Origin: a virus
Virus record (IMG/VR): IMGVR_UViG_3300042514_001262
Location: 1 to 64,000 of that record
DNA length: 64,000 nt
Strand: one strand, 5' to 3'
A program made the position numbers and the translations under genes. The notes below the pieces were generated by a model. The model had not been told where the DNA came from and searched no databases. It saw nothing but the letters and a program-made list of their open reading frames with translations. Below, piece by piece: positions 18,003 through 40,637 of the stretch. Within the stretch, counting starts at the first letter, position 1. The number at the start of each line of letters is the position of its first letter.

Positions 18003-18006
18003 GTCT

Positions 18007-18014
18007 CAAATATA
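18007..18014 (-). promoter_or_regulatory. Host-type -7 element (TATATTTG) at primase start
   Basis: TATATTTG on the coding strand matches TAnnTTTG and ends 4 bases before the primase ATG. An upstream TTTG exists but only 14 bases away, shorter than usual. If used, the transcript would be almost leaderless, as for the very similar site before the 122-aa gene. Confidence 0.45.
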
Positions 18015-18033
18015 GTAAAAATTTACGACAAAT

Positions 18034-18183: not shown

Positions 18184-18184
18184 A

Positions 18185-18553
18185 CTAAACCCATTTTATT
18201 TTTTTTATGTCATTTAAAAAACCTATATCAATACCAAAATACGCTGCATGGTCTCTAACTTCGTTAAAGAGTAACTTTTTTATTAATTTGTTGATTTTGA
18301 TTTTTGATGCCATATTTCTATGAAATAGAGTGGAGTCGTGCCATTCAGCGCCATCAAAATGATTGTAAACCGCCCAGATTTTTCCGTTAAATTCAACATC
18401 AACCTCGTTTCTACATCTGTATTTTCTGTAATTGACGATTTTAAAAGAACCTCTCACTTTATAGGCGTAGTCAGGTATCTCAGCATTTGAAAACTTTTTT
18501 AATGCTTTCTTAGTTGATTTCGTCTCATCATTGGTGATAACATCTCTTGACAT
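18185..18553 (-). CDS. Basic hypothetical protein (122 aa)
   Basis: A 122-residue soluble, strongly basic protein with no signal peptide. A Lys-rich N-terminus is followed by a probable beta-rich core (KVRGSFKIVNYRKYRCRNE, then WAVYNHFDGAEWHD) and a helical C-terminus (KINKLIKKLLFNEV). The charge suggests nucleic-acid binding, as does its place between resolvase and primase, but no known motif is visible. A full TTTG-N20-TATTTTTG promoter ends 4 bases before its ATG, so it is likely expressed early by host polymerase. Confidence 0.6.
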   Translation of the reverse strand: MSRDVITNDETKSTKKALKKFSNAEIPDYAYKVRGSFKIVNYRKYRCRNEVDVEFNGKIWAVYNHFDGAEWHDSTLFHRNMASKIKINKLIKKLLFNEVRDHAAYFGIDIGFLNDIKKIKWV

Positions 18554-18557
18554 GCCA

Positions 18558-18589
18558 CAAAAATAATAAAGAAATTTGGAATTACCAAA
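18558..18589 (-). promoter_or_regulatory. Host-type promoter TTTG-N20-TATTTTTG
   Basis: On the coding strand TTTG (18589-18586, inside the end of the resolvase gene) is followed after exactly 20 bases by TATTTTTG (18565-18558). Box sequences and spacing are the same as in the promoter at 17066-17097. Only 4 bases separate the -7 box from the ATG at 18553, so the message would be nearly leaderless. Confidence 0.75.
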
Positions 18590-19184
18590 TTTCTTTCATC
18601 TTCATATAACCTAAAACACAAGCGTAACTGTCGGTCATATCATAACTCTCTTTCTTGAGGGTATTGTTTTTGGTGTAAGACCAAATAATTTGTGGTTCTC
18701 TCTTGGCAACTAATTCCCATATAACAGCCTTTTTGTCAATGTCTTTCGGCATACCTCCAAATAATACAAATTTTCCTTTATCATTTTTTTGAACTAAATG
18801 TGGGAAGGCAAATTTTCTTGAGTTATATGTTGAAACGAATTCAGGGACAACTCCAAGAACATCATAAACTTCTTTACATACCAAGGTATTAAATCTTATT
18901 AAAGTTCCAACGGTATAAACATTGTTTGAGTTTAATAAAGGTTCTTCAATTACTACATGAGTAATACCCATCCCAACATAATCTTCAAGTTTTTTTCTAA
19001 AGATATGCCCTTTAAGAATTAATTCTTCAATTTTATTCTCAACTTTTGGTTTAGGTACTGGTGATATATGAGTTAACTCTAAAAGTTCTTTCGTTTGAAT
19101 ATCAAATAATGCCCACCCAATTGTACGAGTTGACACATCTAACCCTAAAACCTTAGGTGATGTTTTGTTAATTGTTTTAACCAT
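18582..19184 (-). CDS. RuvC-like Holliday junction resolvase
   Basis: A 200-residue RNase H-fold nuclease. Acidic catalytic positions are visible in LGLDVSTRTIGWAL (Asp16), HVVIEEPLL (Glu pair, about residue 78) and MTDSYACVLGY (Asp, about 184). This is the RuvC pattern, so it probably resolves branched DNA before packaging, the job done by endonuclease VII in T4. It ends in a basic/aromatic tail. Its 3' end contains the -33 box of the promoter for the next gene. The upstream gene is a tail protein, so the replication block starts here. Confidence 0.85.
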   Translation of the reverse strand: MVKTINKTSPKVLGLDVSTRTIGWALFDIQTKELLELTHISPVPKPKVENKIEELILKGHIFRKKLEDYVGMGITHVVIEEPLLNSNNVYTVGTLIRFNTLVCKEVYDVLGVVPEFVSTYNSRKFAFPHLVQKNDKGKFVLFGGMPKDIDKKAVIWELVAKREPQIIWSYTKNNTLKKESYDMTDSYACVLGYMKMKEIW

Positions 19185-19238
19185 AGTTACCTATAAAATA
19201 AACCATACACCAATATTGTAAAGGTCATTATTGAAGAT

Positions 19239-24188: not shown

Positions 24189-24243
24189 TTTTGTTTCTTA
24201 CTTTATAAGTATAATATTTAGTATTTTTATGTGTATATTTTAG

Positions 24244-24891
24244 TTAAGGACACAGAGTATAATTTATTATGGAACCACCGTTATCGACTTGTACTATGTA
24301 AAAACTACTACCAAATCCCATCTTAATATATTTGTTTACACCGTTGAATGGGTTATATAAAACTCCGCCCGCCAATGTTTGATAAACCGTTGCTCCAATA
24401 ACAGGTGTCAGGTTTGCTTGGCTGATATAAGTATAATAATTTACAATTGTCATTGTATCATTACAAGTATTTCCTGAAGAAACAGATAAATTATTACCAA
24501 TAGCATGATAAGCAACAACAGGTGTTGGAGTTGGTGTTGGTGTTTTTGTTGGTGTTATAGTTGGTGTTACAGTTTTTGTAGGAGTTACTGTTGGTGTTGC
24601 AGTTTTTGTTGGTGTTATTGTTGGTGTTATTGTTGGTGTGATAGTTGGTGTTGGTGTGACCGAAGTTGTAGGTGTCGGTGTTATTAAAATAACATGACCT
24701 ATTTCACAATTTTGTGTATCAACAATTTTAACAATAAAATCACTATAGTCATACGGGTCAGGCACATTAAAAGTATATGGGAATGTTGAAGCACTTGTAA
24801 CATAAACACAACTCGCACTCATAGAATCACAATAGTAGATGTCTACGGGTGTGTTAGCTGTTACAGATGATATAGTTACTTGTTCGCTCAT
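24244..24891 (-). CDS. Small Pro-Thr-linked adhesin module protein (215 aa)
   Basis: A 215-residue protein: an N-terminal beta domain (residues 1-72) with [19 protein letters not shown] and [12 protein letters not shown], a (TPT)n linker (about 74-124), and a C-terminal beta domain (about 126-215) with [18 protein letters not shown]. The N-terminal domain is paralogous to those of the proteins at 24902-25408 and 40743-41018. The C-terminal domain echoes a small domain in the 894-aa fibre (FNGVTKLNV). There is no signal peptide, so it is probably a virion surface component. It follows the 168-aa paralogue with a 10-base gap. Confidence 0.65.
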
Positions 24892-24901
24892 GTTTTATCT
24901 A

Positions 24902-25408
24902 TTATAATGGACTTGCCGTTGGAGTTATTGTTGGAGTCACAGTATTTGTTGGAGTAACCGTTGGAGTTATCGTTGGAGTTACTGTATTAGTAGGTGTAAC
25001 TGTGGTTGTTGGAGTTACTGTATTAGTAGGGGTGATTGTTGGTGTTGCAGTCCTTGTTGGAGTAACCGTTGGGGTCGCAGTCCTTGTTGGAGTAACCGTT
25101 GGGGTCGCAGTCCTTGTTGGAGTAACCGTTGGTGTTATTGTTGGAGTTACAGTTATTGTTGGTGTAACCGTTGGTGTTACATTTGGACACGGTTCAACAG
25201 AACCTATACCAGTTATTATACACCCATTGTCATCAATTATTTTTAACATATAAGCATCAGATGTATTATAAGGTGCCGGTATATCAAAAACATACGGTGC
25301 GGAAGATATGGTTGTCATATAAAAACAACCTGTGCCACCTGTTTGACATATATAAATGTCATATGGTAATTGTCCTGTAATTGTATATATTGAAACTTGT
25401 ATTGCCAT
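24902..25408 (-). CDS. Adhesin module with long Pro-Thr tail (168 aa)
   Basis: A 168-residue protein: residues 1-75 are the [29 protein letters not shown] module shared with two other genes here, ending [10 protein letters not shown]-like. Residues about 78-165 consist only of TPTVTPT / [10 protein letters not shown] / TVTPTITPT repeats. It stops within the linker without a C-terminal domain, unlike its 215-aa neighbour, so it may be a truncated copy or a length variant. The DNA contains exact 30-bp tandem repeats (25047-25136), a likely site of slippage. It starts 3 bases after the 752-aa gene's stop. Confidence 0.65.
25047..25136. repeat. 30-bp tandem repeats in Pro-Thr linker
   Basis: Three essentially exact 30-bp units begin at 25047, 25077 and 25107, each encoding ten residues of the Thr-Pro linker. 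The period is a multiple of three, so copy-number change keeps the frame and alters linker length. Confidence 0.8.
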
Positions 25409-25411
25409 TTT

Positions 25412-27670
25412 TTAAGGACATCCGTTTAAAGTTAATGTGTAATCTACACCAACCACAGGTGGTGGGTTAAAATTATCTGCCCATGTTGCCCCCGGTAAAC
25501 TACCTAAAGGAACTGTTGATTGTAAACATCTTTGACCACCAGGAACAATTGGAGTATTAACAACTTGATATCCAGGACATGGTGTTGATAAGTTTGGTCT
25601 TATTGCCAACGAATGTCCAGTTGCTGTTGTAATATTTTCAAATAAATATTCATAACAAATTGGTGTGGATATACAAGTTTGACAATCATCATACTCTGTT
25701 TGGAATGCTGACGCAAAATAATCACCTGTATAAGTTAACGGTGTATATCCAATTGTTGCAATATAATTAGAACCAAATTGACCAAGATATGACCAACAAT
25801 TTCCACTTGAATCTTTAAATGTATTTCCAACAACACTTGTTATTGGTGATTGTACAGTTTGAATTACCTGTGTTGGAATTACAGGTTGTCCTCCACCACA
25901 TGTCTGATATACATAAACATAAGTTGGTGTTTGAGTTGGCGTTTTAGTTGGTGTTGGTGTTTGAGTTGGAGTTTTAGTTGGTGTCACACTAGGACTCGCC
26001 CCTGGCGTTGAAGTAGTTGTTGGTGTTGGTGTGTTCGTTGGGGTAATTGTTGGTGTAGTTGTTGGAGTAGGGGTAGTTGTTGGCGTAGGGTCAGGTAAAC
26101 AATTACCACATATTGAATATAACTGTGTAATACTTGTTAAGTTTGAATTTGATGATATGTTAGAATCGTCTCTATCATAAGTAACACATAAATTATTTCC
26201 GTTGATAACCGCGGACATTGTAATACCTGTAACAATTGGTATTCCATTAAATATCAAATTATCAGTAACATAGTATTCAACACCACTTACACAATCAACA
26301 AGGACTTTAACTGACACACAACTAAATGTTTCATCCAACATCACAAACGAAACTTGACCTGCAACTTCACAAGTTTTTGTTAATGTAACTGTCGGAGTAT
26401 TTGTTGGTGTCGGGGTTGTATTATTATAACTACAAATATTAAAGGTCATTCCAACATTACATGGTTGAGTTGGTGTTGGGGTTGGCGGTAAGAAAGATGA
26501 TGTAATTACAAAATCAACCTCATCACAAGGTATAGTCGGTGTAGGTGTTGGGACAGGTTCCCAATCACAATCAAAATAAGCCGTAAAGTCAAAGATATCA
26601 CAATTGATTGGTGAAGGTGTTGGAGTAGGACATGGTCCACTATTAAATAAATTCGCAGAAATATCAGGACAATTTGAATAACAAGGGTATGCGCCTTCAA
26701 GATAACAAGAACCACTTAAACTATTACTCAAACACCATCTATCACCTGTATAATATATTACACCATAATTGATACCGTCTCCCGAATAATAGAATTTAGC
26801 ATTATAAGTTCCAGCCTGTACATAGTTCCCACTATATCCTGAAAGTGATGGCAATGTCGTTCTTAGACAATATGTTGAACTACAAGGAGCAGGACTTGAA
26901 GTTATTGTTGGTGTAGGGGTTGGTGTTTTAGTTGGTGTAGGAGTTAGATTAATTGTTGGTGTTACTGTTGGTGTTGCAGTTTTTGTTGGTGTTATTGTTG
27001 GCGTTGCAGTTTTTGTTGGTGTTGGTGTAACTGTTGGAGTATTTGTTGGTGTTGGAGACGGGCATGTAATACAAGTCGCACAATCAACTTGAGGTCCTGT
27101 AAAGACACCTCCATTATAAATTGTTCCTGTTGAAGTATTAGCAACGACAGTCGCGCATCCTGTAAATCCACTATTAACAATATCCCAAACTTGTCCAACA
27201 GTTAAAGTACCGGGAACATTTTGAATTCTAAAAATGTTTGTTGGGTCACAACAATCTTGGAATTGATAGATGTCGTATGGTTCAGTTGGTGTGGGAGTTT
27301 GTGTCGGAGTATTTGTTGGTGTTTTTGTAACTGTAGGTGTTGGAGTGTTTGTTGGTGTTTCTGTAATAGTTGGTGTCGGAGTATTTGTTGGTGTTTCTGT
27401 AATAGTTGGTGTTGGGGTGTTTGTTGGTGTCGGAGTGTTTGTTGGCGTTTGACTTGGAGCTGGTTCCGCATTACATGTGGCACAATCAACATATGGTCCA
27501 TAATAATTGGTATTTGATATTGTTCCTGATATTCCTGTAGATTCCCAACATGATGATGATGAATAATCAAATAAAACAACACCTACAGTATAAATTGCAG
27601 TATCAACTAAAAAATCTTTAGTCGTCAAAGGAGTAGAACAGTTACTGAATCTTATTATTGCGAGTCCCAT
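25412..27670 (-). CDS. Multi-module adhesin/tail fibre with Pro-Thr linkers (752 aa)
   Basis: A 752-residue protein. It holds three divergent copies of a Cys-rich module ending in DC.TC: residues about 15-72, 132-202 and 565-650. Pro-Thr linkers lie at about 75-130, 205-262 and 520-562. Between them sit an STYCLRTTLPSLSGYSGNYV beta domain (about 268-340) and a region of short repeats of the form CD..DF...(F/Y).P.PTPT. The C-terminus (about 650-752) is a further Cys-containing domain. No signal peptide. It is the most upstream gene of the left adhesin run, preceded by a TATTTATTA element. Probable virion surface fibre; the modular make-up suggests exchange between fibres. Confidence 0.65.
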   Translation of the reverse strand: MGLAIIRFSNCSTPLTTKDFLVDTAIYTVGVVLFDYSSSSCWESTGISGTISNTNYYGPYVDCATCNAEPAPSQTPTNTPTPTNTPTPTITETPTNTPTPTITETPTNTPTPTVTKTPTNTPTQTPTPTEPYDIYQFQDCCDPTNIFRIQNVPGTLTVGQVWDIVNSGFTGCATVVANTSTGTIYNGGVFTGPQVDCATCITCPSPTPTNTPTVTPTPTKTATPTITPTKTATPTVTPTINLTPTPTKTPTPTPTITSSPAPCSSTYCLRTTLPSLSGYSGNYVQAGTYNAKFYYSGDGINYGVIYYTGDRWCLSNSLSGSCYLEGAYPCYSNCPDISANLFNSGPCPTPTPSPINCDIFDFTAYFDCDWEPVPTPTPTIPCDEVDFVITSSFLPPTPTPTQPCNVGMTFNICSYNNTTPTPTNTPTVTLTKTCEVAGQVSFVMLDETFSCVSVKVLVDCVSGVEYYVTDNLIFNGIPIVTGITMSAVINGNNLCVTYDRDDSNISSNSNLTSITQLYSICGNCLPDPTPTTTPTPTTTPTITPTNTPTPTTTSTPGASPSVTPTKTPTQTPTPTKTPTQTPTYVYVYQTCGGGQPVIPTQVIQTVQSPITSVVGNTFKDSSGNCWSYLGQFGSNYIATIGYTPLTYTGDYFASAFQTEYDDCQTCISTPICYEYLFENITTATGHSLAIRPNLSTPCPGYQVVNTPIVPGGQRCLQSTVPLGSLPGATWADNFNPPPVVGVDYTLTLNGCP

Positions 27671-27836: not shown

Positions 27837-28019
27837 ATGAAACTTATTAAAACAATTGAAAACATAATTAAAGAAGCTGAAGAACAATACAATTCTGCAT
27901 GCGAGAGTTGTGTTACGGTTGAAGAATTGGACCGTCTTGAAAAACATTATAAAGATTCATTAAAATTGATGAAGCTTTGTAAATCAAAAGAGGAAAAAAA
28001 TAAAGATAAAAAATCTTAG
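27837..28019 (+). CDS. Small charged helical protein (60 aa)
   Basis: One of only two complete plus-strand genes. It encodes 60 residues, mostly a charged helix (KLIKTIENIIKEAEEQY, then VEELDRLEKHYKDSLKLM) with a Cys pair (CESC) and a Lys-rich end. The longest open frame starts at a TTG at 27822; the ATG at 27837 is preferred. It converges on the FkbM methyltransferase, overlapping its end by 4 bases. A 166-base non-coding stretch to its left separates it from the divergent adhesin gene. Function unknown. Confidence 0.55.
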   Translation: MKLIKTIENIIKEAEEQYNSACESCVTVEELDRLEKHYKDSLKLMKLCKSKEEKNKDKKS

Positions 28020-28867
28020 TTTTTCTTCATAATCGCTTCGCATATTCCTTTTTCGGAATAAGTAACATATCCTTTAACTTGTAACCAAGAATAAATTTCA
28101 TCTTTATTTTCTTGAGTCAGATTATAATCCTCAAAGATTATGAAATTTGGTAATGAAACTTTTTTCTCATCAATACCCATGATTAGTTGAGCGTCTAATC
28201 CTTCAACATCAAGGTGTAACCAATCAATATACCCACCACATTCATTCAAAATTAAATCGGTAATACTAATTGAATTTCTTTTAGTGGATTTGATTTCTTC
28301 TTTTTCCCAATGTCTAATGACATTTTCAACCACAGTATTTGTATATCCTTGACCACCTTCATAGAATTCAACTTCACCACCATTTGGGGTCACCAATGCT
28401 TGAATTTTCTTAACCCTTGAGTTTTTAGAATAATTGTATTTTAAGTTCTGGAATTGTTTGTCTGATGCCTCAACCAAAATTACTTCACAATCTCTGTTTT
28501 TTACAATAGGTACCCATTCACCAAATTCACCATCGTGTGTTCCAATAACTAATCCACGAGGGAATTTTCCTTTGGAAAGTAAATTTTTGTTGTACATCCA
28601 TAGGGATTTATAAAAATGGTTTCCATGCTCCATAACATCCCACACTTTTTTATAAATCAACTTATCTTTTGAATCAGTTACTTCTACATCAAACATTTCT
28701 GTATTCGGATATGTTGCAAACCAGCTATCATTTAATTGTGTTGACCACTGAATATCTCCACTAACATGTTTTTTTATTTTCAGGTTGAGTGGTAGATTTT
28801 GATTGTAATTACTTACAATGCCAACATCCACTCTAATACCTTCTGAACTGTATTTTACACTTATCAT
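28016..28867 (-). CDS. FkbM-family methyltransferase
   Basis: A 283-residue protein. Residues about 100-270 form an FkbM-type AdoMet-dependent methyltransferase: LVIGTHDGEFGEW (motif I), CEVILVEASDKQFQNL, IQALVTPNGGEVEFY, and the family-typical YIDWLHLDVEGLDAQLIMG. FkbM enzymes usually O-methylate hydroxyls on sugars or other small molecules. The N-terminal 95 residues are a separate beta-rich region. The start overlaps the acetyltransferase stop by 4 bases (ATGA type), so it is the last gene of a three-gene minus-strand glycan-modification operon. It may cap or decorate sugars on virion proteins (inference). Confidence 0.85.
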   Translation of the reverse strand: MISVKYSSEGIRVDVGIVSNYNQNLPLNLKIKKHVSGDIQWSTQLNDSWFATYPNTEMFDVEVTDSKDKLIYKKVWDVMEHGNHFYKSLWMYNKNLLSKGKFPRGLVIGTHDGEFGEWVPIVKNRDCEVILVEASDKQFQNLKYNYSKNSRVKKIQALVTPNGGEVEFYEGGQGYTNTVVENVIRHWEKEEIKSTKRNSISITDLILNECGGYIDWLHLDVEGLDAQLIMGIDEKKVSLPNFIIFEDYNLTQENKDEIYSWLQVKGYVTYSEKGICEAIMKKN

Positions 28868-29412
28868 ACCGTATGTTTTTCAATAAAATAATTTATATCT
28901 GCACTCCACAACAACATTGCCTCTTCTTTGATTTTACTTTCCTCCCAATCCCACCAACTTATTTCCAATAATTTTTCAATCTGTTTTTCATCAAATCTGA
29001 ACTTGATATGTTTGGCAGGGTTTCCACCGACAACAGAATAAGGTTGAACATCTTTGGTAACCACCGCACCTGCGGCAACAATTGCTCCATGACCGATTTT
29101 AATTCCTGACATGATTGTTGATTTGGCACCAATCCAAACATCGTTTCCGATGATGATATCACCTTTACATGAAGGGTGACCCATTTGCATGTGCATACTT
29201 GCAATTTCAGGTGTAACAGGTCCCCACAATTGGGATGATGTTGTTATCCAGTCAGGTCTATGATTTGCATGTAAGAAGAAACTACAATCTCTACCTATTG
29301 AACAATATTTTCCAACTTTAATTTTGTAATCATCACTCCAAGAAATTATATTGACATTTCTGTCGTAGTATGTTCCTCTATCTGCAATCCAAAGATGCAA
29401 GTTTTCTCCCAT
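28864..29412 (-). CDS. Hexapeptide-repeat acetyltransferase (CatB/Vat-like)
   Basis: A 182-residue left-handed beta-helix acetyltransferase. It shows hexapeptide repeats (YCSIGRDCSF, DIIIGNDVWIG, IGHGAIVAAGAVVTKD) and the NPAKHIKFRF ending typical of the xenobiotic/serine/sugar O-acetyltransferases. HANHRP near residue 48 holds the probable catalytic His. CatB-type enzymes use acetyl-CoA; in a glycan cluster the acceptor is most likely a sugar hydroxyl or amine, not chloramphenicol. It overlaps the FkbM gene by 4 bases and follows the upstream methyltransferase by one base. Confidence 0.88.
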   Translation of the reverse strand: MGENLHLWIADRGTYYDRNVNIISWSDDYKIKVGKYCSIGRDCSFFLHANHRPDWITTSSQLWGPVTPEIASMHMQMGHPSCKGDIIIGNDVWIGAKSTIMSGIKIGHGAIVAAGAVVTKDVQPYSVVGGNPAKHIKFRFDEKQIEKLLEISWWDWEESKIKEEAMLLWSADINYFIEKHTV

Positions 29413-29413
29413 A

Positions 29414-30865
29414 TTACTTTATAGTATTGTGTTTAACTTTTTTAATTATATCTGTAATATCGTACTCAACTGAATCCATTTCAAGGATTACGGTGTGATA
29501 ATTTGTTTTGTTAAAACCTAAGTTTATAAGTTTGTCTGTATTCACGATTTCTACCTTATCATCAACTTTTACTTTAATCTCTTGTCCTTTCATTTCATAG
29601 AATAAAAGTTTAATTGGTGCACCAGTTTCATCATTTTTTTCAATATAGAATTTGAATTTATCTGTTGGTGAGTAATTGAATAAATCAAGATTTTCATAAA
29701 AATAAATCCAATCTTCAACAGGCGTTGTTTCAGTTGTATATGGTAGTTTTTCTTTTAGAATTCGTAACCATTCAAACGCATCAGAATCTTTTTCACTCAT
29801 GTAACTTTCTAACGATATTTGGGATATAAATTCCTTAAGATTTTCTCTGTTGAAAATCATATAATGTAATCCAGTTTGCCAAATAATGTCTCCTCGTTTT
29901 GACGGGTAGATACTAAAATCTTTATTTGAGTTAAATCCTTCAATTACATTTTCATCAATTTTCAAATCATATATCATATGAAAGAATTGGTCGTATCCTA
30001 AATTCAATGCAATTTCGCTTAATTGTTTCACTTGAGTTAGTCCTGCAAATCCATAATCGGGATATGTTCTTGACACTTTACGTTTTTGACCTTCAATATC
30101 CACATAAACCCAACTTCTCATCGCCCTTAATGGCCAATCCAAAACAGGGTTGTCTTTTGTGAAGAAAAAATAATCGCAAAGTTTTGTAACCGATTCAGGT
30201 AATGATATTGGACTAATTGCAATAACATCCAAACCATGTCCCTTAACCAATTTTATATTTTTTTCTAAAACATCAATCTTTTCTTGGGTGTCACAAAAAG
30301 TACTAATTAAAGCAACTTTCTTTTCCAGAACAGGTTTTTTTCTATAGATACCAACTGAGTCGTCCCAATATCTGTTTGGCTCATTTGGGCCTGAGGGTGT
30401 TGTGGTATCAATATAATGTTCAACCAATTCAATATCATAACCTAATTTTTTACCCCATTTTTCAAGAGCTTTCCAACTATCAATATAAAATCTCCAATTG
30501 TCACCAGGCCAACCGTGATATGCCCCATTTGATGGTGCTTGAATGTACATGTATCCACCTGGTTTTAAAACTCTACACATTTCGTGGAATGAAACCCAAA
30601 ACATGTCGTCATGTTCAAAACAAGATGATGATATCACAATATCCATTTCATTATCAGAAATTGGAATATCATGAGAAACTCCAACAATATCAACATTTGG
30701 TCCTTCTTCCATGTCCAACCCAATATATTGACCTTTTTCAAAAATTGGTTTCATTGTCCCGTTCACATCATATGAACCAACATCTAATATTTTTTTATTT
30801 TCAATATTTTTTTCACAATACTTGTGATAGAATTTTTCCGCGTTTACGTAGGCTGAGTGATGCAT
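29414..30865 (-). CDS. Methyltransferase fused to a glycosyltransferase-like domain (483 aa)
   Basis: A 483-residue two-domain protein. Residues 1-175 are a class I methyltransferase: KILDVGSYDVNGTMKPIF, YIGLDMEEGPNVDIV, MDIVISSSCFEHDDMFW and RVLKPGGYMYIQAP. Residues about 185-400 start VALISTFCDTQEKIDVLEKN and continue DVIAISPISLPE, which looks like a GT-A-type glycosyltransferase or sugar-modifying domain; this second assignment is tentative. The C-terminal 80 residues are beta-rich. The gene is divergent from the GT4/heptosyltransferase gene across a 68-base region with an inverted repeat. Context suggests glycan synthesis on virion proteins. Confidence 0.7.
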   Translation of the reverse strand: MHHSAYVNAEKFYHKYCEKNIENKKILDVGSYDVNGTMKPIFEKGQYIGLDMEEGPNVDIVGVSHDIPISDNEMDIVISSSCFEHDDMFWVSFHEMCRVLKPGGYMYIQAPSNGAYHGWPGDNWRFYIDSWKALEKWGKKLGYDIELVEHYIDTTTPSGPNEPNRYWDDSVGIYRKKPVLEKKVALISTFCDTQEKIDVLEKNIKLVKGHGLDVIAISPISLPESVTKLCDYFFFTKDNPVLDWPLRAMRSWVYVDIEGQKRKVSRTYPDYGFAGLTQVKQLSEIALNLGYDQFFHMIYDLKIDENVIEGFNSNKDFSIYPSKRGDIIWQTGLHYMIFNRENLKEFISQISLESYMSEKDSDAFEWLRILKEKLPYTTETTPVEDWIYFYENLDLFNYSPTDKFKFYIEKNDETGAPIKLLFYEMKGQEIKVKVDDKVEIVNTDKLINLGFNKTNYHTVILEMDSVEYDITDIIKKVKHNTIK

Positions 30866-30933: not shown

Positions 30934-33210
30934 ATGCTAAAAATATTCGGTCATGGTTCTTACATTGGGAACACAGGTTACAATCAACACACGAGGGATT
31001 TTTTCAGACATCTTTCAAAACACTCTCAAATAAAGTTCAGAAATTTCACGGTTGGAGATAGTTGGAAAGGAATGAGTGAGGAACCCCATAATGGTGAATA
31101 TTATTTTAATGCGACCGACAGAAAATTACTTTACCAACAAGTTTTATGGAACAACGATAGAACAAGAAGTGATTATAAAATGTATAATGACCCATCAAAA
31201 GAGTTTTCACCTGACTTAAATATTGTTTTGTGTGAGACCAACCATAATTTATTTTATGATGAATACTATGGTCCAAAGATTGCTTATAACGTCTGGGAAT
31301 CAACATTACAGCCTGAAGTTTATTTCAATAAATTAAAAGAGTTTGACGAGTTATGGGTTCCATCAAAATGGCAAAGAGATTGTACAATCTCACAAGGTTA
31401 TGACCCGAATAAAATTAAAGTTGTTCCTGAAGGCGTGGATATCTATACATTTTTTCCTGAAGAAACATCACATGAATTAACATCGGACGGAAGATTCAAA
31501 TTCTTTTTGGCTGGTAGATGGGATTATAGAAAATCAATCAAAGAAATTATTGAAACATTCTTAAAAACTTTTGATAAGGATGAACCTGTTGATTTGATTA
31601 TTTCTGTTGATAATCCTTTTTCAGGTGATGGAATGAAAACAACCGAAGAAAGATTGGCACATTATGGTCTTGAAGATGAACGAATCAAAATCTTACATTT
31701 CCCACCAAGAGAAGATTATATTAAAATATTGAAATCTTGTGATGCATTTGTTTCATGTGCCAGGTCTGAAGGTTGGAACTTACCTTTGATTGAAGCAATG
31801 GCTTGTGGTGTTCCATCAATATATTCAAATTGTTCGGGTCAGTTGGAATTTGCTGAAGGTAAAGGTATCCCTGTTAGTATCGTTGGTGAAAAACCAGTTG
31901 ATGCAAGCACCTATAGCCATTTCAATGATTCTGTTGGAAATTATTATGAACCTGACTTCAAAGATTTAGGGAAAAAAATGTGGGAAGTGGTTACAAACCA
32001 TTCAAAATATAAACAACTCGCCCTAGAAGAATCCGAAGAAATTAGATTTAAGTTCAATTGGGAAAAAGTTGCTGAAATTGGTGTCAACACAATAAATGAG
32101 TTTTTGGAAAAACATAAAACAACTGAAGATACGAACCAAGTTATTGTCTCTTACTTGGATGGTCCAAGAGTGGACATAAAAGGAAATGAAGGTAGAAAAT
32201 ACTTTGTTGAATTTATTGACGGTGATGGTAAGGTTAGATATTCAGACACTATTTCAAACAACATGTGGACAGCTTGTGGTATCAAATATTATGTTCCATG
32301 GACAATAAGAATTAACGGTGAAGTTGTTGATAAGTTTAATATTGAAAACAAAACGATTTTAATATCACTTGAATCCAAATCTGTTGGTGATACCATTGCT
32401 TGGGCGCCATATTCCATAGAACTAATGAAACAAAAAAATTGTAAGGTAATTTTAAGCACATTCCATAACGAATGGTTTGAAGGTTCTGAATCTTACAAAG
32501 ATATAAAATTCATTAAACCAGGTGAGTCAATATCTTGCGACGCAATTTATAAATTGGGTTGGTTCAGAGACAACAATAAAGGATGGAAAAACTTCAACTT
32601 GCATCCAAATCAACCGAATTTAATTCCATTACAAAAAACAGCATCAGACATTTTAGGTTTGGAATTTAACGAAGTAAATCATGGTTTGAATTTCAAACCA
32701 GGTAAAAGACCTATTGAAAATAAGTATGTTGTATTTGGACCTCAATCAACCGCAGGTTGTAAAGAATGGTCTTTTGAATATTGGACAGAGCTAACCAAAA
32801 TGGTAAGAAATCTCGGATATGAAGTGGTGATTTTATCCTTGGAAGAATATCACATAAAAGACACTATTTGTATCACAAGTCGTGATTGGAATGATGTGTT
32901 TTCATGTTTATATCACTCCGAGTTTTTCGTTGGTTTGAGTTCAGGTTTGTCTTGGGTCAATTGGACTTTGAATAAGAAAACCGTAATGATTGGTGGATTC
33001 AGTCAAGATGACCATGAATTCACAAACAATACCATTAGAGTTTCAACTAATACTTGTATTAAATGTTGGAATGACCCAGTGTTAGTTTTTGATTCAGGTG
33101 ATTGGGACTGGTGTCCTGTGTATAAAGGAACTGAAAGACAACATATTTGTCAGAAATCAATTACACCTCTTATGGTATTTGGAAAAATATTAGAGAATTT
33201 TAAACAATAA
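30934..33210 (+). CDS. GT4 glycosyltransferase fused to autotransporter-type O-heptosyltransferase
   Basis: A 758-residue protein from the ATG at 30934; the open frame extends back to a TTG at 30886. Residues 1-390 are a GT-B/GT4 glycosyltransferase: GHGSYIGNTGYNQHTRDF, VPSKWQRD, KVVPEGVD, FFLAGRWDYRK and the EX7E motif in EGWNLPLIE (Glu279, Glu287). The C-terminal region (about 460-758) resembles the bacterial autotransporter heptosyltransferase family (TibC/Aah): LISLESKSVGDTIAWAPY, LQKTASDILGLE, FGPQSTAGCKEW, VGLSSGLSWVNW, and a Cys cluster C708-x2-C711-x15-C727-x11-C739 ending KGTERQHICQKSITP. That family O-glycosylates Ser in repeat proteins. The gene faces the Ser/Thr-rich fibre across a bidirectional terminator. 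Confidence 0.85.
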   Translation: MLKIFGHGSYIGNTGYNQHTRDFFRHLSKHSQIKFRNFTVGDSWKGMSEEPHNGEYYFNATDRKLLYQQVLWNNDRTRSDYKMYNDPSKEFSPDLNIVLCETNHNLFYDEYYGPKIAYNVWESTLQPEVYFNKLKEFDELWVPSKWQRDCTISQGYDPNKIKVVPEGVDIYTFFPEETSHELTSDGRFKFFLAGRWDYRKSIKEIIETFLKTFDKDEPVDLIISVDNPFSGDGMKTTEERLAHYGLEDERIKILHFPPREDYIKILKSCDAFVSCARSEGWNLPLIEAMACGVPSIYSNCSGQLEFAEGKGIPVSIVGEKPVDASTYSHFNDSVGNYYEPDFKDLGKKMWEVVTNHSKYKQLALEESEEIRFKFNWEKVAEIGVNTINEFLEKHKTTEDTNQVIVSYLDGPRVDIKGNEGRKYFVEFIDGDGKVRYSDTISNNMWTACGIKYYVPWTIRINGEVVDKFNIENKTILISLESKSVGDTIAWAPYSIELMKQKNCKVILSTFHNEWFEGSESYKDIKFIKPGESISCDAIYKLGWFRDNNKGWKNFNLHPNQPNLIPLQKTASDILGLEFNEVNHGLNFKPGKRPIENKYVVFGPQSTAGCKEWSFEYWTELTKMVRNLGYEVVILSLEEYHIKDTICITSRDWNDVFSCLYHSEFFVGLSSGLSWVNWTLNKKTVMIGGFSQDDHEFTNNTIRVSTNTCIKCWNDPVLVFDSGDWDWCPVYKGTERQHICQKSITPLMVFGKILENFKQ

Positions 33211-33273
33211 ATCCTTATCTTGGATGGAATTGTCCTCTATGGAACAATAAGTCCAAGAACCATATCTACAAAA

Positions 33274-33301
33274 AAAAAATAACCCGTTTGGGTTATTTTT
33301 T
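33274..33301. terminator. Bidirectional intrinsic terminator
   Basis: Twelve-bp arms (33274-33285 and 33290-33301) with a GTTT loop pair as AAAAAATAACCC with GGGTTATTTTTT. A GC core flanked by A and T runs gives termination on both strands, separating the plus-strand glycosyltransferase from the minus-strand fibre. The following 107 bases to the fibre stop hold nothing convincing. Confidence 0.9.
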
Positions 33302-33408
33302 TACTCCAACTATTATAAATGTCTTTTGATTTTTTGTAATATGAACACACACAGTATTCATTACAATCATTTCATGGTCAATAAGGTTATGTCCATTCAC
33401 AACACCAA

Positions 33409-36400
33409 CTATTGAGTACAATTAGTATACGCCTTAAAAGTGTAACTAATTTTTACGTCTCTCGCGTCAGGTAAATCACTTACATTAAAACCTAAAAGGA
33501 ATAACACATTACAATCATCTAAAGTATCCTCAACTGTAAAACCTAAATTAAAACACGAAGTGTATGAGTCATCGTTTTTAAAATAATCAGTACGAGTAGT
33601 CAAATTATTTGTGGTGAAAGCGGTAGTAACTACCTCAGAACAAAGAAAATAATTTAAAGCAATATTTATCGCATTGGTTTCAGTTGCTCCTGAACAATAT
33701 ACAATACCACAGACCTCAATTTTGTCACCAACACTTAAAATATATGGATTTGGTATTCCGCAATTAACATATCGTGTACTTAAGGTAGGACTGTTTTGGA
33801 GATTTCTCACATTAAGGTCATATGAACAAGAATCCCAACCACATCGACTGTCCCCATACCAATAGTCTTCACTACTATTTGTTTCAGAATATGCAAAAGA
33901 ATGTGAAGCTATTAACCATTTTGAACCCACAGTTATATTAGCCTGACCTCCTCCACCATCTGTTGCAACAATACAACTACCTTGAAAATTCATTGCTGTT
34001 GTTGAAGACATTACAAATACATTTTCATCGTAGATAGTTAATGCTCCAGATGTTCCACTTGTTCCACTTGAACCATTAACACCACTTATACCGCTTGTTC
34101 CTGATGAACCATTAGTTCCGCTTGAACCTGAAGTACCTGATGAACCACTTGTTCCACTTGAGCCCGAGGCACCTGAAGAACCACTTGTTCCACTTGAGCC
34201 CGAGGCACCTGAAGAACCACTTGTTCCGCTTGAGCCAGATGAGCCGCTAGTCCCTGAAGAACCCGAAGTACCACTTGAACCTGAAGACCCACTAGTACCA
34301 CTTGAACCTGAATCACCTGATGAACCGCTAGTCCCTGATGAACCGCTAGTCCCTGATGAGCCAGATGAACCTGAGGTTCCACTTGTTCCTGAAGAGCCTG
34401 AAGCACCTGATGAACCGCTTGTTCCTGATGAACCGCTTGTTCCTGATGAACCACTTGTTCCTGAACTACCACTAGTACCTGATGAGCCAGATGAACCGCT
34501 AGTTCCCGATGAACCTGATGAACCTGATGAACCTGAAGCACCTGATGAACCAGATGAACCTGATGTTCCTGAACTACCACTTGAACCTGAGGTACCTGAA
34601 GAACCACTAGTTCCTGATGAGCCACTAGTTCCTGAAGAACCAGATGTTCCTGATGAGCCATTAGAACCCGAAGTACCGCTAGTTCCTGATGAACCTGAAC
34701 TACCTGAAGTTCCTGAAGAGCCAGATGAACCACTTGTACCCGAACTACCACTTGTTCCTGACGAACCTCTACATACACAATCTGTTGAAGTTATATCTGC
34801 GCTTCCACTAGTTACTTGCGGAGTTGTTATTGAGCAAACTTGTACGGTTTGACCAAACCCAAGAGTTAAACCTGAAGTACCACCAACACAACAATCGTCA
34901 TAACTAATATTGGTCTCAACTTCCTCTGCTCTGATACTCCATACATAACAAGTTAATCCGTCAATACCACTAGTTCCACTTGAACCTGAAGAACCACTAG
35001 TCCCTGAACTACCACTATTTCCTGAAGAGCCACTAGTTCCTGATGAACCGCTAGTTCCCGATGAACCTGACGAACCGTTAGAACCCGAAGTACCGCTTGA
35101 ACCTGATGTTCCTGAACTACCACTAGTCCCTGAAGAACCGTTAGAACCCGAAGTACCGCTTGAACCTGATGTTCCTGAACTACCACTAGTCCCTGAAGAA
35201 CCGTTAGAACCCGAAGTACCGCTTGAACCTGATGTTCCTGAACTACCACTAGTCCCTGATGAACCGTTAGAACCTGATGTTCCTGAAGACCCACTAGTTC
35301 CACTTGAGCCAGATGAACCACTTGTTCCTGAAGAACCACTTGAACCGCTAGTTCCACTTGAACCACTTGAACCACTAGTCCCTGATGAACCGTTAGAACC
35401 TGAAGTTCCGCTAGTTCCACTTGAGCCAGATGAACCACTAGTTCCTGATGAACCAGAAGAACCACTAGTTCCTGATGAACCAGAAGAACCACTAGTTCCT
35501 GAAGAACCTGATGTTCCACTACTACCGCTTGTCCCTGACGAACCTGATGTTCCATTAATTATACCTAACGTAGTTTGACCATATGAATAGTGAGTTGTAC
35601 CTTCGGTTACGAAAGTAATTGTATGTGATTGGTTTGATGTATTTGTAGATTGAACTTTAACTAATATCCTATCAGTAGTATTGATAGAAGAACCACTCTG
35701 AAATCCATCAGATAATACCATTGATGGATTTGGTGAATTTGTTGTTACAGGTACTGGGTCTGTTGAAAATAATAAAGTTTCAGTCCCACCTGTTGTTCTT
35801 GAATAAACTTCACAGAAAATATTAAAACTCGCATTATTATTTTCTTTATATGCGTGTAAGAAGAAAGACCAAATTCCCGCAGGTATAGTTGATACATTTG
35901 GATAATTTGAAGGTGTTAAATAGGATTGAATAGTTGATGTTACACCATTCGCAATCGTAACAGTTACCGTTTGTTGAGCACCACTTGTTGGTATAGGTGA
36001 AAATTCTTTATAAGGCGTTTGTGTTACTGACTCATTAAAATAATAAATAGCTCCACCTGAAATACCATTAACACCACTTGTTCCAGAAGTTCCAGAAGAA
36101 CCACTAGTTCCACTTGAACCAGATGAACCTGATGTTCCGCTTGTTCCCGATGAACCATTAGAACCTGAAGTTCCGCTTGTTCCACTTGAACCAGATGACC
36201 CACTAGTTCCTGAAGAACCACTAGTTCCTGAAGAACCACTTGAACCGCTAGTTCCACTTGAACCACTTGAACCTGAACTACCCGAAGTACCGCTTGAGCC
36301 AGATGAGCCTGAAGTTCCTGAACTACCCGAAGTACCACTTGAACCTGATGAACCGTTAGAACCCGAAGTACCACTTGAACCTGATGTTCCTGAACTACCA

Positions 36401-39400
36401 CTAGTTCCCGAAGAACCGCTTGAACCTGATGTTCCTGAACTGCCTGAAGTACCGCTTGAACCTGATGAACCACTATTCCCACTTGAACCTGAAGAGCCAC
36501 TAGTTCCTGATGAACCACTTGTCCCTGAAGAGCCAGATGAACCGCTAGTTCCACTTGAACCTGAAGACCCACTAGTACCACTCGAACCTGAGTCACCTGA
36601 TGAACCACTAGTCCCTGCTGAACCAGATGAACCACTTGTACCCGAACTACCACTAATTCCTGATGAACCTGAAGAACCGTTAGTTCCACTTGAACCTGAA
36701 GAACCGTTAGTTCCACTTGAACCTGAAGAACCACTTGTTCCTGATGAACCACTCTCTCCACTTGAACCTGAGGTTCCGCTGCTACCAGAATCACCCGGTG
36801 CTCCCTCAAGATTTATAGTCCAAACACAATACTGTGAATTACCGTTAAGTATTGATGTTATTTCAACAACAAACGCACCTGTTGTTGGGTTATACGATAC
36901 TATATCACCAGTAAACAAATTATTAACATCGTAAGCAACCAAGATTCCTTGCCCTATAGTCATACTTAAATTAGTAGTTCCTGTGAAATATATTAAATTA
37001 CCTATAGAATATGCCGAAAGAGTTAAACAAGTGTTTGATATTCCATTATATATTGGACTTACTCCTGAAGTCCCTGAACTACCACTTGTTCCACTTGAAC
37101 CTGATATTCCTGAAGAACCACTTGTTCCGCTTGAGCCACTAGTTCCGCTTGAGCCAGAAGTCCCTGAAGAACCTGAACTACCGTCAGTTCCGCTTGAACC
37201 GCTAGTTCCTGAAGAGCCGCTAGCTCCCGAAGAACCACTAGTTCCTGAAGAGCCGTTAGAACCTGAAGTTCCACTAGTACCACTTGAACCGCTAGTTCCT
37301 GAAGAACCACTAGCACCTGAACTACCACTTGTTCCGCTTGAACCAGAAGTTCCTGACGAACCACTTATTCCGCTTGAACCTGAAGTTCCCGACGAACCTG
37401 AACTACCACTAGTCCCTGAAGAACCGTTGGAACCTGAAGTTCCCGAACTACCGTCAGTTCCGCTTGAACCGCTAGTCCCTGAAGAACCACTAGCACCTGA
37501 ACTACCACTTGTTCCGCTTGAACCAGAAGTTCCTGACGAACCACTTATTCCGCTTGAACCTGAAGTTCCTGATGAGCCAGATGAACCGCTTGTACCCGAA
37601 CTACCACTTGTTCCTGAAGAACCACTATTTCCACTTGTCCCTGATGAACCACTTGTACCAGAAGAACCATCTGAACCCGAAGTACCACTTGAACCACTAG
37701 TTCCTGAAGAACCACTAGTTCCTGAAGAACCACTAGTTCCTGAAGAACCACTTGTACCAGAAGAACCATCTGAACCCGAAGTACCACTTGAACCACTAGT
37801 TCCTGAAGAGCCACTTGAACCACTCGAACCTGAGGCACCTGAAGAACCACTAGTCCCACTTGAACCTGACGCTCCGCTAGTACCTGACGAGCCATCCACA
37901 CCTGAAGTACCACTTGAGCCGTTAGTTCCTGATGAACCAGAAGTTCCTGATGAACCAGAAGTTCCTGATGAACCGCTAGTACCTGACGAGCCATCCGCAC
38001 CTGATGTACCACTTGAGCCGTTAGTTCCTGACGAACCAGAAGTTCCTGATGACCCACTTGAACCTGAGGTTCCGCTGCTACCAGAATTACCCGGTGCTCC
38101 CTCAAGATTTATAGTCCAAACACAATATTGCGAATTACCGTTAAGTATTGATGTTATTTCAACAACAAATTCTCCTGTTGTTGGGTTATACGATGCGACA
38201 TCGCCAGTGAACAAATTATTAACATCATAAGCAACCAAGATTCCTTGCCCTACAGTTATACTTAAATTAGTTGTTCCTGTGAAATATATTAAATTACCTA
38301 TAGAATACCCTGAAAGGGTTAAACAAGTGTTTGATGTTCCATTATATATTGGACTTATCCCTGAACTACCACTTGAACCAGAAGTCCCTGAAGAACCTGA
38401 GCTACCATCCGAACCGCTAGTTCCTGATGAACCTGAGCTACCATCCGAACCACTTGAACCATCTGTACCTGAACTACCGCTTGACCCGTTTGTACCTGAG
38501 CTACCACTTGTTCCACTTGAACCATTAACACCACTTATACCACTTGTTCCTGAACTACCGCTTGAACCTGAAGTTCCTGATGAACCACTTGTCCCTGATG
38601 AACCTGAAGTTCCAGATGAACCACTTGTCCCTGTACCACCTGTAAAATTGATTAAAACATTTCCACCACCTTGGTTAATAACCGTAGCACCTGAAAATGT
38701 CATACCTGTAACAGATGTTACAGTAACACCTGATGTGGAATCATATACCGTTAAAGAACCTGAACCTGAAGTAATACCTGTAACATTAACAACACTTCCA
38801 TCACTATTATTTAAAGTCAATGTTGAAGTACCGCTATTGTATGTTCCGCCAGTTATAGTTCCTGTGAATCCTGTAATTGTTACAGTACCACCCGTATTAT
38901 TATATAAATCTAAAATTTGTGTACCCGAAAAATATGTACCACCTGTAATTTGAACATCACTTCCCGAAAATATTCTCCATCTTGCATCATTATGTGAAAC
39001 ACCATTAACCCCTTCAATTGTGCTTCCTGTCCAAGAATTGATAAAATCTTTACCAGCTTGAGAACGATTGTTTACAATAGTACTATACTCAGAAGTAGTA
39101 ATAGCCGAACTACCAGTTAAACCTGTTACCGCATTCCATAAAGTGTCATAGTTCGGAATTGTATATTGATAAACAGTATCTGTTTCTTGAACATAAACCT
39201 GCATACCTAATCTTCTTCTACCTGAAGATATATTATCAGAGTTTAATGTAACAAAATCAGGTGAGAAAGCAGAACCAGTTCCTTTTGTAAAATTGATTGG
39301 AATAGTGTTTGCAGATAATTGAATGTTAGCAGGATAAGTTGTTGCCGTCAACACTAAATCTAAATCACTTAAGTTATAAACTTCCATGTGTCCACCTGTC

Positions 39401-39501
39401 TGTAATACAGAAAAGTTAGTACCGAAAGTGCTAGTCCTTACAACACTAGTAGGTCCTGCTAATTGAGCCGAAGATAGGGGGTTTTTATATGGAAATGACA
39501 T
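33409..39501 (-). CDS. Giant collagen-like Ser/Thr tail fibre (2030 aa)
   Basis: A 2030-residue fibre. Residues 1-285 are a non-repetitive beta-rich N-terminal region, probably the virion attachment. Five blocks of strict Gly-X-Y triplets follow, nearly all GSS and GTS with occasional N, D, A or I and essentially no proline (about 290-385, 473-810, 900-1145, 1317-1517, 1578-1820). Globular domains interrupt them: a domain starting ISPIYNG occurs twice, almost identical (about 385-473 and 813-900), with others at 1147-1317 and 1517-1578. Residues 1820-2030 are a Cys-containing C-terminal domain, the likely receptor-binding tip. Triplets suggest a trimeric triple helix. The hydroxyl density makes it the prime target for the neighbouring O-glycosyltransferase (inference). 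Confidence 0.85.
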   Translation of the reverse strand: MSFPYKNPLSSAQLAGPTSVVRTSTFGTNFSVLQTGGHMEVYNLSDLDLVLTATTYPANIQLSANTIPINFTKGTGSAFSPDFVTLNSDNISSGRRRLGMQVYVQETDTVYQYTIPNYDTLWNAVTGLTGSSAITTSEYSTIVNNRSQAGKDFINSWTGSTIEGVNGVSHNDARWRIFSGSDVQITGGTYFSGTQILDLYNNTGGTVTITGFTGTITGGTYNSGTSTLTLNNSDGSVVNVTGITSGSGSLTVYDSTSGVTVTSVTGMTFSGATVINQGGGNVLINFTGGTGTSGSSGTSGSSGTSGSSGTSGSSGSSGTSGISGVNGSSGTSGSSGTNGSSGSSGTDGSSGSDGSSGSSGTSGSDGSSGSSGTSGSSGSSGISPIYNGTSNTCLTLSGYSIGNLIYFTGTTNLSITVGQGILVAYDVNNLFTGDVASYNPTTGEFVVEITSILNGNSQYCVWTINLEGAPGNSGSSGTSGSSGSSGTSGSSGTNGSSGTSGADGSSGTSGSSGTSGSSGTSGSSGTNGSSGTSGVDGSSGTSGASGSSGTSGSSGASGSSGSSGSSGTSGSSGTSGSDGSSGTSGSSGTSGSSGTSGSSGTSGSSGTSGSDGSSGTSGSSGTSGNSGSSGTSGSSGTSGSSGSSGTSGSSGISGSSGTSGSSGTSGSSGASGSSGTSGSSGTDGSSGTSGSNGSSGTSGSSGSSGTSGSSGISGSSGTSGSSGTSGSSGASGSSGTSGSSGTSGTSGSNGSSGTSGSSGASGSSGTSGSSGTDGSSGSSGTSGSSGTSGSSGTSGSSGISGSSGTSGSSGTSGVSPIYNGISNTCLTLSAYSIGNLIYFTGTTNLSMTIGQGILVAYDVNNLFTGDIVSYNPTTGAFVVEITSILNGNSQYCVWTINLEGAPGDSGSSGTSGSSGESGSSGTSGSSGSSGTNGSSGSSGTNGSSGSSGISGSSGTSGSSGSAGTSGSSGDSGSSGTSGSSGSSGTSGSSGSSGTSGSSGTSGSSGSSGNSGSSGSSGTSGSSGTSGSSGSSGTSGSSGTSGSSGTSGSNGSSGSSGTSGSSGTSGSSGSSGTSGSSGSSGSSGTSGSSGSSGTSGSSGTSGSSGSSGTSGTSGSNGSSGTSGTSGSSGSSGTSGSSGTSGTSGVNGISGGAIYYFNESVTQTPYKEFSPIPTSGAQQTVTVTIANGVTSTIQSYLTPSNYPNVSTIPAGIWSFFLHAYKENNNASFNIFCEVYSRTTGGTETLLFSTDPVPVTTNSPNPSMVLSDGFQSGSSINTTDRILVKVQSTNTSNQSHTITFVTEGTTHYSYGQTTLGIINGTSGSSGTSGSSGTSGSSGTSGSSGSSGTSGSSGSSGTSGSSGSSGTSGTSGSNGSSGTSGSSGSSGTSGSSGSSGTSGSSGSSGTSGSSGTSGSNGSSGTSGSSGTSGSSGTSGSNGSSGTSGSSGTSGSSGTSGSNGSSGTSGSSGTSGSSGTSGSNGSSGSSGTSGSSGTSGSSGNSGSSGTSGSSGSSGTSGIDGLTCYVWSIRAEEVETNISYDDCCVGGTSGLTLGFGQTVQVCSITTPQVTSGSADITSTDCVCRGSSGTSGSSGTSGSSGSSGTSGSSGSSGTSGTSGSNGSSGTSGSSGTSGSSGTSGSSGTSGSSGSSGTSGSSGSSGASGSSGSSGSSGTSGSSGSSGTSGSSGTSGSSGTSGSSGTSGSSGASGSSGTSGTSGSSGSSGTSGSSGTSGSSGDSGSSGTSGSSGSSGTSGSSGTSGSSGSSGTSGSSGASGSSGTSGSSGASGSSGTSGSSGTSGSSGTNGSSGTSGISGVNGSSGTSGTSGALTIYDENVFVMSSTTAMNFQGSCIVATDGGGGQANITVGSKWLIASHSFAYSETNSSEDYWYGDSRCGWDSCSYDLNVRNLQNSPTLSTRYVNCGIPNPYILSVGDKIEVCGIVYCSGATETNAINIALNYFLCSEVVTTAFTTNNLTTRTDYFKNDDSYTSCFNLGFTVEDTLDDCNVLFLLGFNVSDLPDARDVKISYTFKAYTNCTQ
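35076..35264. repeat. 63-bp tandem repeats in collagen-like block
   Basis: Three consecutive 63-bp units start at 35076, 35139 and 35202, with a partial fourth from 35265. Each encodes seven Gly-X-Y triplets. Near-identity at DNA level points to recent duplication or slippage that changes fibre length in frame. Confidence 0.8.
36781..37055. repeat. Direct repeat copy encoding ISPIYNG domain (copy 2)
   Basis: About 275 bp nearly identical to 38077-38351, offset by exactly 1296 bp (432 codons). Both copies encode the same roughly 90-residue globular insert in the collagen-like fibre, differing at a few residues (for example VSPIYNG versus ISPIYNG). Confidence 0.85.
38077..38351. repeat. Direct repeat copy encoding ISPIYNG domain (copy 1)
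   Basis: Partner of the repeat at 36781-37055. The in-frame direct repeats could recombine to delete or duplicate one collagen block plus one globular domain. Confidence 0.85.
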
Positions 39502-39536: not shown

Positions 39537-40637
39537 TTATGATTTAGTATCACCTTTAACCCAGAAAGTCGTTGTTAATGGAGGTGAAGATGGTTCAGAA
39601 CACAATTCATTCATCCACAACACTCTATATGTTCCAACAGGAATTGCACATCCACTTGGAACTACCACATTTACACCCGCATTTATAACATCAGGTACAC
39701 CATTATCAATTATTGATGTTGAACATGCATTACCTAATCCCACATCTAAAGTCATGTTGGTCATTGTTCCTCCAACACCAGATAAAGGTATCCAAACAGT
39801 ATATGTATATTGAATTGATGGGTTCACTTGTGATGTTGTCACAGGGATACTACTAAAACTATATTGATTTTGAGAACATCCATAAGAATCAACACCCGAA
39901 CCTGAAGATTGTCGTATTGGACCATTCAATGTTGATACGTTTGTTATGAAATTACCAACAGACCCTGTCCAACCTGAGAATTTAGCATAAATTGCCATAT
40001 CTGATGCGTAGTTTAGTCCCGCAGGTGTTCCACTATTACCCCATCCAAAGAAGGATACCGCACCTGTATCATACATATATTGACCCAAATTATTCAATGA
40101 TGTTGGGTCTTGAGGTTCAGGGAATAAATAAGCACTGAACGCTGCCGGACTCGGTGTTGGAGTATTTGTAGGTGTTGAGGTATTTGTAGGCGTTGCAGTA
40201 TTTGTAGGCGTCGGTGTTGGTGTTTGTCTTGTTGGTGTTACAGTTGGAGTTTGAGTTTGTGTTGGAGTTGTAGTATTTGTTGGTGTTGGGCTTGGAGATA
40301 ATCCTGGTGTAGGTGTTATAGTAGGTGTTATAGTTGGTGTCGCAGTATTTGTTGGTGTAGGTGTAGGTGTTTGGTTTGTTGGAGTAATACTTGGTGTTGG
40401 AGTAGGTGTTGGAGTAATACATTCAACATTTACAAGAACCCCATTCAACATTTCAGTTCTTGTTTGGTCTTCATAAACCAGTGTAGAACCCAAATAAACA
40501 TTAAATGGACCTAAAGCGCTTGAATTAGATGTTAATCTGACAATATATGTTGAACAACCCGATACCGTTATTTGCTGTTCAATTTCATTATCACAACCAA
40601 CAGCATTATTGGTAACGGTTATAGTGTATGTAGCCAT
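39537..40637 (-). CDS. Pro-Thr-linked adhesin/fibre protein (366 aa)
   Basis: A 366-residue protein: an N-terminal beta domain (residues 1-72: [18 protein letters not shown], then [12 protein letters not shown]), a Pro-Thr linker (about 75-162) and a C-terminal globular domain (about 165-366) starting [20 protein letters not shown] and containing several Cys. The layout, short N-domain plus linker plus distinct C-domain, matches the proteins at 21504-24188 and 24244-24891, so it is a member of the same modular fibre family. No signal peptide. A TATTTATTT element precedes it. Confidence 0.65.

Follow-up and report, generated by a model that had tools for sequence, protein, structure and literature searches.

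A GT4-fused TibC-like glycosyltransferase of a tailed phage and its probable acceptor, a collagen-like fibre

The gene at positions 30934..33210 (plus strand) of the window, a 64,000-nt stretch that is part of a viral record of 101,887 bases, encodes a glycosyltransferase of 758 aa that fuses a GT4 domain to a domain of the TibC/Aah (BAHT) type, as determined by ORF analysis, family matches and comparison with 36 related viral loci. On balance, it is probable that this two-domain enzyme attaches O-linked sugars, inside the infected cell, to a collagen-like tail fibre encoded by the phage itself, with the TibC-like half acting first and the GT4 half extending its product; this view draws on sequence comparison and a structure model. 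Herein, we infer which acceptor and donor sugar are used, in what order the sugars are transferred and how the fibre is affected.

The fusion gene and its GT4 half

The record also encodes a tail sheath, a UvsX-like recombinase at 62941-63945 (which served as control query) and a B-family-like DNA polymerase that was spotted by eye. Hence, it belongs to a tailed phage with T4-like genes, and the recombinase and the sheath bear out the phage origin assumed in the first-pass annotation. The fusion gene is open across exactly its span, starts with ATG and is complete, and an ORF check found no long frame on the minus strand opposite it. It is the sole sizeable plus-strand gene amid minus-strand neighbours. 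Values of dN 0.09-0.34 at dS >1 indicate purifying selection on either half. A chance or wrong-frame ORF is thus ruled out by the frame check, the conserved columns and the selection. The gene converges on that of the collagen-like fibre, 198 bp apart, and an inverted repeat between the two (33270..33302, no strand assigned), flanked by A and T runs and read straight from the sequence, is likely a bidirectional terminator.

The GT4 half (residues 1-390; 30934..32103, plus strand) is of the retaining type, as had been noted at first pass. PF00534 matches residues 183-306 with 59.7 bits (cut-off 26.4), and PHROG 2170 is matched as well. The EX7E pair, E279-x7-E287, is invariant across 21 relatives, as are R195 and K200, and fold matches lead to GT4 structures including 3oy2 and MshA.

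The TibC-like half

The second half (residues 395-752; 32116..33189, plus strand) matches TIGR04414, a curated equivalog profile, with 201.5 bits at a cut-off of 200 (profile positions 4-371 of 374; E 2e-59), or 202.4 bits for the C-terminal domain alone; phmmer connects it to TibC (4rap) with an E value of 8e-32. The match begins at about residue 395 and not at 460, where the domain had initially been drawn to start (460-758). The TibC/Aah signature that had been recognised is present, with SGLSW at residues 670-674 and the cysteine pattern C708-x2-C711-x15-C727-x11-C739. For the TibC-like domain alone, an AlphaFold model was built from 81 aligned sequences (mean pLDDT 96.4). The cysteine region, which has a pLDDT below 50 in the full-length model, is confidently predicted in the domain-only model and adopts the TibC fold, and an N-terminal β-barrel is present (strands 7-72). 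TibC chains make up all of the 21 best PDB matches of this model (E values as low as 4e-31; TM 0.80-0.88, or 0.80-0.83 by target length), whereas WaaC/WaaF-type structures reach E values of about 1e-8 and TM scores of 0.47-0.57. On the profile side, TIGR02193 scores 13.7 bits against a cut-off of 185. A generic GT9 lipopolysaccharide (LPS) heptosyltransferase is thereby ruled out. Of the two outcomes that had been named as speaking against the assignment, a match to generic GT9 enzymes only is thus not found, and a predicted structure lacking the metal-binding cysteine geometry seems improbable given the confident prediction of the cysteine region within a TibC fold.

In TibC, D110 probably acts as the base, the sugar nucleotide is contacted by T226, K230, R286 and W305, and C339, C342, C358 and C370 hold an iron that is required for assembly and activity, the iron finger serving the protein substrate (PMC4358343). 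By alignment, D486 (32389..32391, plus strand) is the counterpart of D110 and is invariant in 84/84 homologues. The predicted iron-finger cysteines C708, C711, C727 and C739 (33055..33150, plus strand) align with the four of TibC and are kept in 82/84, and T606, K610 and W674 take the places of T226, K230 and W305. None of these columns varies among 21 phage fusions, and they hardly vary among the 84 diverse domains, every one of which matches TIGR04414. At the P300 site the 84 homologues carry Ser or Gly, and AAH itself carries Ser there (PMC4358343). R286 is replaced by V655 according to the alignment alone; its column among the homologues is mostly Val, Thr, Ile or another residue, and some phage homologues keep Arg. 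In TibC, this arginine contacts the adenine and is required, and a β-hairpin thumb with F265 and V266 builds the dodecamer. These thumb residues fall within a deletion of the phage domain in the alignment; because the thumb is absent, a TibC-like dodecamer appears unlikely. In addition, the autotransporter repeat target (TIGR04415) has no match anywhere in the 101,887-base record, which rules out an autotransporter as acceptor within this phage. The family profile is passed, but R286, the thumb and the autotransporter target fail; hence, the domain is called TibC-like rather than an autotransporter heptosyltransferase. Judged by its sequence, it forms a separate branch within BAHT and is no copy of TibC. 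The heptosyltransferase named at first pass holds for fold and family; heptose is the putative donor, and Val stands in place of the adenine-contacting R286.

The collagen-like fibre and its association with the enzyme

The convergent neighbour (33409..39501, minus strand) encodes a collagen-like fibre protein of 2030 aa, the proposed acceptor, which is the sole collagen gene product of the record and is matched by PF01391 in 19 stretches with 486.5 bits in total. It contains 378 counted Gly-X-Y triplets of the GSS/GTS type. The X position is Ser in 54% and Thr in 36%, and the Y position is Ser in 91% and Thr in less than 1%; Ser-type fibres of related phages have a similar triplet composition. 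Tandem repeats arise by copying, so the triplets of a fibre are not independent of each other. Several of the PHROG "tail fiber" matches of the gene stem from the repeats, and the nonrepeat ends have no PHROG match. The residue modified by AAH and by TibC is Ser, never Thr (PMC4358343), and since the Y position is nearly free of Thr, the Ser at Y is the predicted site. The adjoining fibre and the genomic association described below favour the Gly-Ser-Ser/Gly-Thr-Ser acceptor proposed from the window at first pass, and this protein is likely the enzyme's substrate.

A single-sequence scan of viral records yielded 36 viral loci, and an alignment scan of IMG/VR found at least 570 viral contigs that encode a TibC-like domain. 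Among the best 80 of these, almost every untruncated one has this GT4 fusion; remoter phage copies are mostly joined to GT4 as well and otherwise stand alone. Viral contigs are fragments, and many loci come without both flanks complete. A collagen-like gene lies within 8 kb in 31 of the 75 distinct fusion loci, and in 17 of the 22 that have both flanks complete, leaving five without one in that range. The controls, sampled among the matches listed, gave 0/80 for UvsX loci of related phages and 2/80 for random loci. The converse search points the same way: contigs of at least 15 kb were chosen solely by a GSSGTSG-coding DNA pattern, with controls chosen by a neutral 14-mer, and a TibC-like domain was found in 27 of 67 GSS-repeat contigs vs 2 of 48 random ones in these sampled listings (Fisher p 6e-6). 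The two sets have equal median lengths, and the enrichment holds within each length class.

The pairing recurs in bacteria. A scan of a genome collection by the enzyme alone gave five hits (L041-L045), of which L041 and L042 look phage-like, and L043, L044 and L045 are bacterial with a stand-alone TibC-like gene. Throughout these three genomes, a pattern coding for (G-S/T-S/T)4 matches solely on the enzyme's contig, 10 times in L043 (9.2 Mb), once in L044 (4.0 Mb) and 13 times in L045 (3.8 Mb); the reversed control pattern has no match in any of them. The adjoining GSS-repeat proteins (L043:3387-4841, L044:8661-9008 and L045:1284-1943) are separated from the enzyme gene by about 5, 1 and 1 kb, respectively, and no phage genes are apparent at these loci. 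L044 and L045 share their gene order and hence count as one lineage. That both bacterial lineages would show the pairing by chance is unlikely, by rough estimate on the order of 1e-6 to 1e-7.

Eight fusion loci (L068:4285-6672, L079, L093, L101, L107, L110, L111 and L117) carry a collagen that is Pro-rich, with mostly Pro at X and few Ser or Thr. All eight encode a stand-alone 2OG oxygenase of the PF13640 type together with a GT4-GT25 protein of 780-820 aa, some of the latter with a weak 2OG match at the C terminus, vs none of 23 Ser-type loci. The comparison covers the loci fetched around the fusion, at most about 10 kb to each side. A custom profile found oxygenases that a whole-genome PF13640 search had missed, and certain Ser-type records (W01, G122) have 2OG genes at other positions; thus, the contrast is claimed solely for the vicinity of the fusion. 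A tree contains three independent Ser/Pro switches, all concordant, and with only three the sign test lacks significance (p 0.25). Judging from these gene contents, the oxygenase could create an acceptor hydroxyl where the collagen does not encode one, and the two types may be read as two ways of hydroxyl supply, with either Pro or Lys as possible target. Hydroxylation that only stabilises the helix would fit the Pro-type loci too. These loci recall the hydroxylation and glycosylation of collagen in Mimivirus and animals.

Several further observations concern the surroundings of the fusion. Upstream lie, all on the minus strand, an FkbM-type methyltransferase with possible glycan O-methylation activity (28016..28867; PF05050, 36.8 bits; syntenic in L002, L004-L007, L019 and L033), a hexapeptide acyltransferase with possible glycan acylation activity (28864..29412; PF00132, 39.8 bits; syntenic copies) and a methyltransferase of the Methyltransf_11 type, the C-terminal half of which has no assignment (29414..30865; PF08241, 35.4 bits; full-length copy in L033). 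The genes of 28016-30865 stay beside the fusion in its closest relatives. Large, mucin-like proteins with Thr-Pro (TPT) repeats are encoded on the minus strand at 21504-27670 and 39537-40637. The product of 41029-43167 contains SprB repeats (PF13573, 88.5 bits), which are otherwise known from gliding adhesins of Bacteroidota and are a possible hint at the host. At about a dozen loci (among them L006:10283-11161, L009, L010, L011, L017, L018, L033, L035, L100 and L104), a second, stand-alone TibC-like gene of 292-298 aa follows the fusion immediately on its downstream side; this shorter protein has no N-terminal barrel but retains a thumb-like stretch. The fusions of L005, L011, L019 and L042 lie amid genes for epimerases, a DegT aminotransferase, a hexapeptide acyltransferase and a nucleotidyltransferase, identified partly by eye, which suggests a glycan of elaborate structure. 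In L040, an HtrL_YibB-type gene (17512-19185; PF09612) adjoins a CmcI-type methyltransferase gene (19192-19818) at the opposite end of the record.

Proposed function, alternatives and relation to known systems

According to the favoured model, the TibC-like half would place a first sugar on the Ser of Gly-X-Ser triplets. This sugar would probably be a heptose drawn from the host's ADP-heptose pool, and the GT4 half would lengthen it, after which the neighbouring methyl- and acyltransferases may complete the glycan. The record encodes no PF01467 nucleotidyltransferase; hence, the host has to supply the donor. The glycan might act on the solubility of the fibre, the stability of a Pro-free collagen and of its triple helix, protease resistance, or binding to host or surface. 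A wider reading, to which we assign somewhat less than an even chance, is that a widespread class of environmental phages modifies its own collagens: Ser/Thr-type fibres would be O-glycosylated directly by the GT4-TibC fusions, Pro-type ones would first be hydroxylated by phage 2OG oxygenases and then modified by GT4-GT25 and GT4-TibC enzymes, and Gly-X-Ser would form a second acceptor class that includes the bacterial GSS proteins.

The fusion might instead modify the LPS or capsule of the host, leading to superinfection exclusion or receptor change, and its proximity to the fibre would then reflect a common host-recognition region. Glycosyltransferases of pelagimyophage host-recognition clusters have been interpreted in this way (PMC7029224), and the epimerase, aminotransferase, acyltransferase and nucleotidyltransferase genes give some loci the look of an O-antigen or sugar-nucleotide cluster. 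However, the domain is TibC-like and not WaaC-like and keeps the iron finger that serves a protein substrate (PMC4358343), and its link to GSS repeats is found again in bacteria, at loci where phage genes are not evident, so this alternative is considered unlikely. That another virion protein, for example the TPT proteins of 21504-27670 and 39537-40637, is the acceptor in place of the collagen seems quite improbable. Such Thr-rich, mucin-like proteins do lie nearby and occur at 9/90 fusion loci vs 0/80 and 1/80 controls among the matches listed, but most fusion loci lack them, AAH and TibC act on Ser and not on Thr (PMC4358343), and the bacterial copies pair with GSS proteins.

A further alternative departs from the favoured model in the donor alone and agrees with it on the acceptor: the TibC-like half might transfer a nonheptose nucleotide sugar to the fibre. 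With R286 lost, another donor is conceivable; the position holds Val in this protein and differs from Arg in most of the 84 homologues, Ser or Gly occupies the P300 site, and no PF01467 gene exists in the record. As the counterparts of Thr226, Lys230, Trp305 and the base are all kept, some phage homologues retain the Arg, and the P300 position is Ser in AAH too (PMC4358343), this alternative is regarded as doubtful.

The proposed glycosylation of the fibre resembles several known systems in part. With TibC and AAH (BAHT, TIGR04414), the phage enzyme shares the fold, the catalytic Asp, the Thr/Lys/Trp sugar site, the four-Cys iron finger, the N-terminal barrel and, as proposed, a Ser-containing repeat acceptor. 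Unlike them, it is fused to GT4, phage-encoded and thumbless and has R286 replaced, and it is predicted to act on a collagen-like Gly-X-Y fibre instead of a β-helix autotransporter. Mimivirus L230 is a collagen lysyl hydroxylase and glucosyltransferase, so that one virus supplies a collagen-like protein along with the enzyme that glycosylates it (PMC4691112). In the sister phage loci, too, a GT25-like domain is accompanied by 2OG oxygenases, whereas the enzyme of the Ser-type fibre is unrelated, needs no hydroxylase and belongs to a virus of bacteria. In mycobacteriophages, virion proteins are reported to be glycosylated, and phage-encoded glycosyltransferases are suspected in related phages; the sites are C termini of capsid and tail-tube proteins rather than collagen-like fibres, and the enzymes are others (work cited in PMC12619734).

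Among INPHARED isolates, the only near full-length match (44%) comes from the Microcystis phage Mel-JY01 (PP395634). Its WWT39291, annotated as methyltransferase FkbM, is a homologous fusion near a GSS/GTS collagen-like frame but differs by a methyltransferase-like insertion (1226 aa) and by its cyanobacterial host. This collagen-like frame (L038:2-3052), at the start of the record, lacks a fitting annotation, the record listing a minus-strand CDS and a short fragment in its place, and at the record end there is an unannotated open frame of 754 aa (L509:27739-30002); the two end frames may be one gene cut by the record ends. A literature search found no paper on Mel-JY01. The protein A0A6J5SVC1 of an uncultured Caudovirales phage (BFVD/UniProt; 924 aa) has the same TibC-like fold (TM 0.91) and bears only an automatic name, "Glycosyltransferase Aah/TibC", with no acceptor or system described. 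The first-pass statement that no such phage system has been described agrees with our literature search, which covered mostly papers accessible without subscription and found none on phage TibC-like enzymes, an absence that is no proof of novelty, nor any description of a phage glycoprotein of the glycosylated collagen-like tail fibre kind; as hundreds of viral contigs encode the domain, the protein itself is not unique.

If the proposed glycosylation is true, it would give a function to a common "auxiliary" glycosyltransferase type of aquatic phages. Phages would be seen to add sugars to collagen-like fibres of their own, a task for which Mimivirus uses an unrelated enzyme, and the acceptor range of TibC/Aah-type enzymes would widen from autotransporters to Gly-X-Ser repeats. 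It would also offer a testable answer to why viruses have prolyl-hydroxylase-like genes, the role of which has been termed cryptic (PMC9301287). The cultured relative Mel-JY01 opens the way to glycoproteomics of the virion.
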